Source: Candidatus Saccharimonadota bacterium (lineage in GTDB: Bacteria; Patescibacteriota; Saccharimonadia; Saccharimonadales; AWTP1-31). From it: 42,623 bases of DNA. The notes beneath the pieces are model-generated. The model made no database searches. It worked only from the letters and a program-made list of their open reading frames with translations, and had not been told where the DNA came from. Shown in pieces: positions 3,094 through 7,137 of the stretch. Position 1 is the first letter of the stretch; every line of letters begins with the position of its first letter. The DNA is taken from positions 1 to 42,623 of the forward strand of contig JAPLYT010000011.1 of the NCBI GenBank assembly GCA_026395435.1, written 5' to 3'. A program made the position numbers and the translations under genes.

Positions 3094-4641
3094 TTAAAGA
3101 GCTGGCGGGTTGACTACGTAAAGCCTATCTTTCGTTATGAGGCCATCAAGTAAATCCCGGTTGGGGTAATTGAATCGATTAAAATTGTCGTCTCCCGTCG
3201 TACAGCAATACGCTGTCGGATCTTTCTCTATACCAAGAGTCTTCCAGGTAGCAGCTTGCGGCCCTTCTAGTCCGTCGGTTTCGATACCAATGCCATTACC
3301 ACCAGTTTCGGCCGATACCGCTCCGTAATCCCTGAGTGCGACAGCAAAGACACGGGCAGTTTTACTTTTTGGCTTATCTAGATCCCAGCTACTGTCGTTT
3401 TTTGATCGTGCCGTAGTTTGTCGAGATAATAGCCAAGCGTCAATATCGCCGTTAGTGATATTGAGTGCGAAACGCATGCCACTCGGTATTGTCTTTGACC
3501 TTTCGGCATCTGTGACTGGCGGGTTACCAACGCCGCCGTATCCGAGGGAACTTGGATTCTTATTCTCGAGGCGCGTTGCAGGCGGCAAATAAAATCCTTT
3601 CGATACCCCTGCTCCCGCTTCGGTATAGTTTGTTTCAGGAGTAGTCATATCAGGTCCAAACATTACTCCTGCAATAGTAAGTGACAAGGCGTGCTCTATC
3701 TTACCGGCTTTGACCTCATCGGCGCGAGTGATGAGGGCTAATTTGTTGATTCCCATTCCTCGTAAGGACCTTGTTTTTCCTTCTTTGGCACTCCATAGAT
3801 CATAGCCTGGTGTATCATTGGGTCCTCCGTAAAGGTTCATGCCTCCAATACACAAATGACTGGCATTGCCTGAATCGAAGGAAATACCATAGCTGTTAAA
3901 AGCATTGTTAAGATTAAGGCTGCAGTTAATTCTGTTCTCTGCGACACGCCAAATTTCTATAACTTCCCCCGTGTCGTAATTGACAATCGCAATTGTGTCA
4001 TCGCCAGGAGCTCTGACGGGCGAGAAAATATCAGGCGGCGTATAGAGCCAGTCTTTGGGTATCCAGTCGTAATTCCAGGGGATTGAGCGGCCATTCATAA
4101 GCCTGCCTGTAGGGTCTGAAAAGCCATTTTGAATAAGGTCGCCGGTTTGATAGACTCGAGCCGTCAAACCGGGTGTGGCAGTTTTGATGTCATATACAGG
4201 CACCGACCACAGCTTGAAATCGACCGTGAAGCCGCCACCAGTTTTTTGTTGTGTTCCATCGATCCTAAATTGTGGTCCACCACCATAGTTCCAGAGCCTT
4301 TGGCCAAAACTTTCTCCAGCAAGATTAGTAGAGCCATTGAGGACAGTTGAACTACCCAATTGGGCTACGGTTTTGTTCCAGCTTGCTTCAGGTGAAAAAA
4401 ATCGTCTAGCTGTTGACCCAGCTCCAAATCGTACCGCACCTGTACCGGAAATATCTGCCACATTTGAAACCACAGAAGCATTACCAGCAACCGTGCCAGT
4501 TTCGGGATCTATTGTGATCGTGGGCGTTGCCGCTTTGCTAATCAACAAGGTGACAATACCGATGATGCCAAACGCAACAAGTATAATGCTGTAACGTTTT
4601 ATAGTAATTTTGGATTTGTTTTTAAGCTTCATTGGTTTCAT
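3094..4641 (-). CDS. Secreted or membrane-anchored protein of unknown function
   Basis: 515 aa; N-terminal basic + hydrophobic helix (KRYSIILVAFGIIGIVTLLISKAA), then ITIDPETGTVAGNASVVSN...GTGAVRFG motif and a large extracytoplasmic region. Confidence 0.75.
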   Translation of the reverse strand: MKPMKLKNKSKITIKRYSIILVAFGIIGIVTLLISKAATPTITIDPETGTVAGNASVVSNVADISGTGAVRFGAGSTARRFFSPEASWNKTVAQLGSSTVLNGSTNLAGESFGQRLWNYGGGPQFRIDGTQQKTGGGFTVDFKLWSVPVYDIKTATPGLTARVYQTGDLIQNGFSDPTGRLMNGRSIPWNYDWIPKDWLYTPPDIFSPVRAPGDDTIAIVNYDTGEVIEIWRVAENRINCSLNLNNAFNSYGISFDSGNASHLCIGGMNLYGGPNDTPGYDLWSAKEGKTRSLRGMGINKLALITRADEVKAGKIEHALSLTIAGVMFGPDMTTPETNYTEAGAGVSKGFYLPPATRLENKNPSSLGYGGVGNPPVTDAERSKTIPSGMRFALNITNGDIDAWLLSRQTTARSKNDSSWDLDKPKSKTARVFAVALRDYGAVSAETGGNGIGIETDGLEGPQAATWKTLGIEKDPTAYCCTTGDDNFNRFNYPNRDLLDGLITKDRLYVVNPPAL

Positions 4642-4839
4642 TTAGATTGATCTGGATTATAAGAATCCAGCATGTATGAGCGATATACCCTCATTACTAT
4701 GATAAACTACTTTGTTTACTTTTCTGCATTCAATTCGGTGTTTTTACTAAATGTATCGAAAATATAATATCCATCATAGGCTCTTAGAAAGGCAAAGTGT
4801 TTATGCTAAAATAGAATCAAATAATATAAGGAGAAAACC

Positions 4840-5619
4840 TTGAAACCAAAGACTAAAATAGGCGCCTCATTGCAGAAATTTAATCGACGGATGGGACTTC
4901 TACACCTTATCCAAGGTTTAATATTGCTAATGATCTTTAACCGTGCCCTGACACTGCCCGTTTTGACACGGTTTTTGGGTAATACGCCTGATGGAGTAAG
5001 GCCAGTAGCAGAGACGTTGTTTTCGTTTCCAGTAGCCATCGTGGGTCCAATATTTTTGTTGATTTCAGCTTTTTTTCACTTATTGATATCATCGCCAATG
5101 TATATTCAAACGTACGAGAATAATATCAAAAAAGGCATGAATCCGATGCGATGGCTTGAATATTCGATAAGCTCATCACTTATGCTAACGGTGCTTTTGA
5201 TGCTGGGCGGACTACTCGAATTACCGAGTGTCATATTTATCTTTACGCTTAATTTCATTATGAATATGATGGGCCTCGAGATGGAACGCTATAATCAATT
5301 CACCACGAAGACTTCTTGGTTTCCGTTCAACATTGGCGTGCTCGCGGGTATCGTACCGTGGATTGTGGGAGGAACATACTTCTGGGTATCGACAAATCAT
5401 ATTGCAGATTCAATTCCTGGCTATGCTAAAGCTGGTTTCCTATTAACATTTGTATTCTTTAATACATTCGCGGTAAATATGTATCTACAGTACAAAAAGA
5501 TTGGCCCTTGGAAAGATTATGTCTATGGAGAAAAAGCATATATTTGGTTAAGTTTGATCGCCAAAACATCATTAGCCTGGATTCTCGTTCTTGGCACTAT
5601 CAACCAAGTTGCTAAATAA
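4840..5619 (+). CDS. Heliorhodopsin
   Basis: 259 aa, about seven hydrophobic helices, TTG start behind AAGGAG. Recalled heliorhodopsin 48C12 motifs align: SLQ(K/N)FNR..G..HL(I/L)Q, RW(L/V)EYS(I/L)SSS, (V/C)(L/I)AGIVPWI, YLQYK..G.W..Y..GE(K/R)AYI.LSL(I/V)AK(T/S)(S/A)LAW. Schiff-base Lys is K242. Confidence 0.93.
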   Translation: MKPKTKIGASLQKFNRRMGLLHLIQGLILLMIFNRALTLPVLTRFLGNTPDGVRPVAETLFSFPVAIVGPIFLLISAFFHLLISSPMYIQTYENNIKKGMNPMRWLEYSISSSLMLTVLLMLGGLLELPSVIFIFTLNFIMNMMGLEMERYNQFTTKTSWFPFNIGVLAGIVPWIVGGTYFWVSTNHIADSIPGYAKAGFLLTFVFFNTFAVNMYLQYKKIGPWKDYVYGEKAYIWLSLIAKTSLAWILVLGTINQVAK

Positions 5620-5730: not shown

Positions 5731-7137
5731 ATGCATGAATATAATGAATTTGACGTAGCAGGCCAAGCTCTTGCCAAAGCTGAGTGGGAATTTAGCTCTA
5801 TATTGCATGCTGCCGAAATAGATACCGTTAATGATTATCGCTGGGCTCACGATGCGCTGAGAGAGAAATTATTGAATCTACGTGATAATTCGTTGCTCAT
5901 GGGTCAGATCGTTGAAGTAGATGTCGCAGAGCACGGACGTGTTATCGATTATTCGACAAACAAAACTGAACAATTAGGTGAAAGTCGAATCATTGGTACA
6001 TTTGAAGGATTTTATGTCGACAAGACGGTAACTCGCGACCAAGCGACTATCAGTGCTGCCCTGCCGTATATAGATGAAGATGATCTATCAAAAATGGATA
6101 GAATGCCACTATTTGCTCAGGACATGGTTGATATTCAGCTTGGGATACGCTTAAAAACTATTATTCCAATACCGGGCACCGATGAATCGCGAACGTTTGT
6201 TGAAATACCGATGAGTGATATCGAGGATATTTGCTTTCCTGAACAAGATCATCCGTTGATTGAGGAAGAAACACTCATGTTCGAATATGCTTCGATCATC
6301 ATGCAAGCCAATGATGTCTATGATCTAGGTACCAGCCTTGATTCTGCTTTTGAGGCTATTGCGGCCAAGCGCTATAAAGAATCATCTTTGATAGGTCGGA
6401 AAATGCTGCTCCTTGTCGAAGAAGGCTCTAAGACCTTCGAAGCAAATCTAGACGGCACGAAAATGCCCATAGATGTGCCCGTTCTTAAAAGGCTTGCAGG
6501 TAAGCTTATCGGCTTTGCTGCACACGTAAAAGATCCTCAAATTGGAGCCGAACCTCTCGCGCTGATCAGTGATTTAGATACGGGTGAGTTATTGAATATC
6601 CATCTTTCGTCTATCGCTGAGGGCGCCTTGATTGATGAACTAGATACTGAGCGTGACTTACGACTTTTCAACTATACTTCTAATTCATTCAATGATCATG
6701 TCCGACATATCATCGATAAGGATCCTTGGGATCATCAAGCAATCTACGAGTACTTACAATCGGTCTGCTGGAAAATGAATAATGGGGCCGATCCAATCCT
6801 TGATCGTGAAATAGTGATCCAAACCTACCGAGATTCACCATATGAAATCAGCACTATAGACTATAGTGACCCGAGCCTGATACTTGGTGAATTTGATTTT
6901 GAAGAACTGATGGATGTCGCCCTGGGTGAATCATTTAGCCTAGAAGGCCGGCTGGTAGGTTATCGGTTTGCTATCTTGGAATACCAAGACGACAAACCCA
7001 TTGATGAATTTGATATTCGATTGATTGCCATCATCAAACATGATTCAACATTACTCCACTTACTCAAGGGAGTAAGTGTTTTGGTTCCTGTTGACGCCAT
7101 CAAAAATGCTCGACTTGGCAATGTTAACTATAACTAG
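5731..7137 (+). CDS. Hypothetical protein, 468 aa
   Basis: Long ORF, acidic soluble-protein composition, no family recognised; ends next to a terminator. Confidence 0.7.
   Translation: MHEYNEFDVAGQALAKAEWEFSSILHAAEIDTVNDYRWAHDALREKLLNLRDNSLLMGQIVEVDVAEHGRVIDYSTNKTEQLGESRIIGTFEGFYVDKTVTRDQATISAALPYIDEDDLSKMDRMPLFAQDMVDIQLGIRLKTIIPIPGTDESRTFVEIPMSDIEDICFPEQDHPLIEEETLMFEYASIIMQANDVYDLGTSLDSAFEAIAAKRYKESSLIGRKMLLLVEEGSKTFEANLDGTKMPIDVPVLKRLAGKLIGFAAHVKDPQIGAEPLALISDLDTGELLNIHLSSIAEGALIDELDTERDLRLFNYTSNSFNDHVRHIIDKDPWDHQAIYEYLQSVCWKMNNGADPILDREIVIQTYRDSPYEISTIDYSDPSLILGEFDFEELMDVALGESFSLEGRLVGYRFAILEYQDDKPIDEFDIRLIAIIKHDSTLLHLLKGVSVLVPVDAIKNARLGNVNYN

Follow-up and report, generated by a model that had tools for sequence, protein, structure and literature searches.

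The locus analysed here, on a contig of 42,623 nucleotides from a Candidatus Saccharimonadota genome (the whole stretch is called the window below), raises the question of whether a very small bacterial genome encodes a true heliorhodopsin (HeR), and of what such a protein would do in its cell. The initial annotation, made from the sequence alone, had assigned the open reading frame at positions 4840..5619 (+ strand) to the heliorhodopsins and had proposed a profile search and a structure prediction as checks. Both bear out the assignment, and the ORF is a genuine heliorhodopsin (type-3 rhodopsin) of 259 amino acids. Its sole Pfam match is PF18761 (6.1e-82; 275 bits for a cut-off of 26.7), the type-1 rhodopsin family PF01036 being unmatched, and the HeR equivalog NF038020 of NCBIfam is recovered with an E-value of 9.9e-88 (293.8 bits for a cut-off of 100). 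The solved heliorhodopsins of the PDB match the protein with E-values from 2.5e-58, and the three sequence motifs on which the annotation relied are all present in the ORF. The gene begins with a TTG codon preceded by the ribosome-binding site AAGGAG (4828..4833, within a base or two, + strand). This start, already suggested by the annotation, is supported by six relatives of the same clade (clade A, see below), whose ATG start codon aligns with the TTG or with the codon next to it (MHP/MKP...). A weak promoter-like match, TAGAAA-16-TAAAAT with a TG before the -10 element (4785..4812, + strand), is not evidence of function, and such promoter-like sites are no commoner than in shuffled sequences.

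The HMMER alignment with 48C12 (6su3) reveals that H22, H80, E107 and K242 correspond to His23, His80, Glu107 and Lys241 of the reference, as stated in the annotation, and the same four pairings are found in an alignment of about 130 HeRs. N101, R104 and S238 are conserved as well. E107 occupies the position of the TM3 glutamate counterion. The AlphaFold2 model, built with an alignment of 33 relatives (mean pLDDT 92.8, pTM 0.88), displays seven helices and, following helix 1, the beta hairpin typical of HeRs, and the Schiff-base motif SxxxK (S238-x3-K242) lies within the last helix (helix 7, residues 227-258). In the Foldseek comparison of this model, the ten best PDB matches are all heliorhodopsin chains (TM 0.85-0.88), with 6is6 at an E-value of 1.7e-19, a TM of 0.88 and an rmsd of 1.5; the type-1 rhodopsins rank after them, with a TM of about 0.6 only. 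The protein shares with TaHeR (6is6) and 48C12 the fold, the Schiff-base lysine, the glutamate counterion and the pair of histidines. Its identity with 48C12 is 39%, and residue 247, a glutamine in 48C12, is an isoleucine in the window HeR and Ile or Val throughout clade A. His80, Asn101, Arg104, Glu107, Ser237 and Lys241 (48C12 numbering) are retained in all of the 17 clade-A proteins. In one of these (L126), a Gln replaces the conserved His at the H22 position. The N-terminus of the window HeR contains the basic residues K2, K4, K6, K13, R16 and R17, a pattern of the positive-inside type.

Ion transport like that of the viral V2HeR3 was considered for the window protein. The fold is the same as that of the V2HeR3 type and two viral proteins (G8DFM6 and M1H3Q0) are among the structural matches. 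However, a glutamate in TM6, E191 of V2HeR3, is the reported hallmark of ion-transporting HeRs (PMC9448325), and the window HeR has T203 at this position, as counted by the offset from the conserved Q217 and E231 and assuming no indel in TM6. The protein is also nearer to the non-transporting TaHeR and 48C12 in both sequence and fold, and an ion-transporting HeR like V2HeR3 is thus very improbable here.

The assembly comprises 937,984 bases, is 98.4% complete and belongs to the class Saccharimonadia, in agreement with the Saccharibacteria origin read from the sequence by the annotation; the window is its contig 15. The genome contains two further HeRs, beyond the reach of an annotation confined to the window, one on contig C6 (44% identical to the window HeR) and the other on contig C10 (36%). 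In a tree of 121 HeRs, the three copies fall into three clades, A (the window copy), B and C. Most of the genomes compared are metagenome assemblies, and some of the HeR trees contain long branches. Copy B is a member of the common HeR clade of Saccharimonadia. Copy C and its Saccharimonadia relatives are sister to 48C12 (support 100/98), nested in actinobacterial HeRs; with 59% identity, copy C, and not the window copy, is the true relative of 48C12 in this genome.

Clade A is supported at 100/100 and is composed of 10 rows from Saccharimonadia and 7 from Microbacteriaceae. Among the genomes surveyed, Microbacteriaceae are the only carriers of this clade outside Saccharimonadia, a sharing that could not be seen from the window. 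PF18761 is matched in 102 of 393 Saccharimonadia genomes, clade A being present in nine of them and in one more (G003) recovered by the family search. In Microbacteriaceae the respective figures are 79 and only 5 of 393 genomes, and in four of these five clade A is a second copy. The closest relatives of the window HeR come from Saccharimonadia of the same family (74-75% identity). The Microbacteriaceae proteins are 61-69% identical to it, those of the five surveyed carriers 65-69%, and on the Microbacteriaceae contigs the flanking genes look actinobacterial (for instance an apparent histidine-utilisation cluster in L020). This sharing could also mean that the window gene is a contaminant or a misbinned actinobacterial gene. 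Such an origin is scarcely credible and misbinning was rejected: the best relatives are those from the same family, the HeR-A of a genome from a different family (G189) adjoins the same TPR-holB-rluA-trpS cluster as the window gene, and the 42.6-kb contig carries a cluster of ribosomal-protein, rpoA, rpoB and rpoC genes (named by reading the sequences), which shows that it is not a stray contig.

The comparison of copies A and B indicates how clade A has spread. Between G189 and G044, which belong to different orders, HeR-A is 91% identical versus 56% for HeR-B; between G324 and G044 the values are 83% and 55%. Most pairs within family f30 display the reverse ratio. As HeR-A is far closer than HeR-B across orders, HeR-A moves horizontally. 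A single branch (92/85) divides the Saccharimonadia part of clade A from the Microbacteriaceae part, and a long stem (1.43) leads to the clade, a tree shape that fits transfer in either direction. Horizontal spread is established by these comparisons, and from its distribution the clade-A gene appears to be an accessory copy, mobile among Saccharimonadia, that has crossed between them and Microbacteriaceae. A virus as carrier was rejected, no clade-A match being found in viral contigs. In three clade-A pairs the dN/dS ratios are 0.025, 0.099 and 0.066, low values which imply that the gene is maintained by strong purifying selection.

The annotation had noticed no retinal-making gene in the window, and this absence extends to the whole genome: profile searches detected neither phytoene synthase (PF00494; seven controls positive) nor Blh (PF15461; control positive in 4 of 150 Actinobacteria). 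The retinal would therefore have to come from outside. For the type-1 rhodopsins of Saccharibacteria (SacRs), a Blh-independent uptake of retinal has been proposed, and measurements showed that they bind externally supplied retinal quickly, HeR being cited as comparably fast (PMC9296517). The SacRs are retinal-dependent proteins in a genome without retinal synthesis, as the window HeR would be. They differ from it as outward proton pumps of type 1, and PF01036 had no match in the window genome in a search whose control set was silent as well. The same paper (PMC9296517) counts Actinobacteria among the hosts of Saccharibacteria. The cell that carries the present genome is probably epibiotic. 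The window also encodes, at 72-2801, a surface-type protein of 909 amino acids with DUF285 repeats (4e-66) and DUF11 in Pfam, DUF285 being described by Pfam as a Mycoplasma protein.

The genes adjoining the window HeR were examined for a partner. The downstream gene (5731..7137, + strand) encodes 468 amino acids, has no Pfam or NCBIfam match and is an orphan, of which no intact relative was found in 294 other genomes of the class; it is thus no conserved partner. The divergent upstream gene (3094..4641, - strand) encodes 515 amino acids with an N-terminal hydrophobic stretch and matches no family. The flanking genes being lineage-specific, a conserved partner at this locus was ruled out.

Elsewhere, HeR-A has the gene of a small K+ channel with two transmembrane segments (PF07885 7.5e-21, TVGYGD filter) no more than about 1 kb away in five Saccharimonadia genomes (G023, G189, G016, G044 and G029), and a sixth (G019) has such a gene beside a HeR-B. 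The channel genes that adjoin HeR genes are located at L016 5157-5477, L122 3581-3907, L123 5094-5429, L124 4800-5162, L126 5532-5738 and L181 5746-6021. These are 6 of about 70 channel matches in 393 genomes, for about 0.27 adjacencies expected by chance, and channel and HeR occur together in 39 of the 393 genomes (odds ratio 6.3), the neighbour and co-occurrence statistics being uncorrected for kinship. A clade-A HeR that regulates this channel under the control of light, and hence the membrane potential, would account for the association, the channel having been lost or replaced in the window genome. However, the five clade-A cases correspond to one inherited or transferred cassette, so that only about two adjacency events are independent (P ~0.03); the channel gene is mostly divergent and outside the HeR operon; and PF07885 has no match in the window genome. 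We consider this regulation unlikely for the window HeR, and the channel beside the five other clade-A loci is a lead, not a proof.

Other neighbours recall the published hypothesis that the HeRs of monoderms sense photo-oxidative stress (PMC8612252, PMC9166423). TspO/MBR adjoins HeR-A in L016 (PF03073 2.2e-27), and a SOUL haem-binding gene (PF04832 1.7e-38) precedes HeR-A by 60 bp, in the same orientation, at L014 137-736 and L015 446-1045, a possible operon. A KatG-like gene is near HeR-A in L140 and a peroxiredoxin-like gene in L141, and HeR-B adjoins msrA. By eye, a TspO-like membrane protein that matches no Pfam family was also observed beside Microbacteriaceae HeR-A (L139 2332-3264 and L140 541-1434). 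The K+ channel, TspO and SOUL are outside the ten HeR neighbour groups of PMC11109279, and the main text of PMC8612252 does not mention TspO, SOUL, methionine sulfoxide or potassium channel. A clade-A sensor of photo-oxidative stress would be a version of the sensory reading given below in which the partner pathway is named. It is rather unlikely in this specific form, as each stress-type neighbour recurs in one to three clade-A loci only and none of them flanks the window copy. MsrA as a general neighbour of HeRs was rejected, being common at the copy B slot only.

This slot, msrA-HeR-trmA-rsmE, is the conserved locus of copy B. All 26 low-scoring HeR homologues of the class that were examined are located in it (L127-L129, L135-L138 and L211-L229), and 16 of them have A, S, V, R, E, L, Q or I instead of lysine at the K241 position, often with an altered counterion as well. 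The remaining ones keep the lysine, in a part of the data where the alignment is less sure. In the tree, several of the lysine-less proteins are on long branches inside the lysine-bearing slot clade, which forces at least two losses. The nine slot homologues tested all match NF038020 and seven of them exceed its cut-off. A narrow phrase search of the literature retrieved no report on lysine-less heliorhodopsins; it did retrieve lysine-less animal opsins. The HeR fold need not be a photoreceptor in this lineage, since copy B has relatives without the lysine. We propose tentatively, with somewhat less than even confidence, that the HeR scaffold of Saccharimonadales has a light-independent job: the slot HeRs would have repeatedly lost the retinal lysine and the counterion and yet stayed in place, as a retinal-free HeR family analogous to the lysine-less animal opsins, and light would be sensed through the separate, retinal-using copies, namely A and the actinobacteria-derived C.

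For the window HeR itself, the explanation that we favour, and hold to be probable, is a working, non-pumping sensory heliorhodopsin that scavenges its retinal from outside and acts via a protein partner. The three HeRs of this genome differ in origin, the window copy being a horizontally mobile one. The protein is predicted to lie in the membrane so that its N-terminus faces the cytoplasm, with all-trans retinal from outside the cell bound to K242 and E107 serving as the counterion. Photoisomerisation of this retinal would alter the protein at its cytoplasmic side and so modulate a partner protein, with no pumping of ions. The sensing role is deduced from the family, for which glutamine synthetase, photolyase and an ABC transporter are precedents of partners. 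Counted against this sensory reading are the change of Gln247 to Ile or Val in clade A, which may affect the protein, the lack of a conserved neighbour at the window locus and the loss of the lysine among relatives of copy B.

The annotation had left open whether HeRs of this lineage were already published. They were: according to the available text of PMC9166423 (2022), Saccharimonadia accounted for 80 HeRs in a screen of 1326 CPR genomes, and SLIAK was one of the frequent motifs. The window HeR has the same class, family and SLIAK motif in helix 7, and thus adds one sequence to a known set. The new detail is the presence of three HeRs from three clades in one genome; the available text of that screen does not resolve the HeRs of a genome into three clades, and it distinguishes neither a clade common to Saccharimonadia and Microbacteriaceae nor homologues that lack the lysine. 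In Microbacteriaceae, evolutionarily distant second HeR copies have been described in Aquiluna of the Luna-1 group (PMC12422013), and the part of this report at hand draws no link between them and Saccharibacteria. Clade A is likewise a second copy in four of its five Microbacteriaceae genomes, a parallel that does not imply equivalence to the published Aquiluna copies.

As the lysine-less slot proteins show, current profile models apply the name "heliorhodopsin" too widely, and a slot that contains both lysine-bearing and lysine-less HeRs is a natural comparison for the role of the HeR fold without light. Some Actinobacteria host Saccharibacteria. A sub-megabase genome keeps here three HeRs, one common to Microbacteriaceae and one within the actinobacterial radiation, and with such a three-clade set the exchange of photoreceptor genes between a probable epibiont and the phylum of its potential hosts becomes testable.
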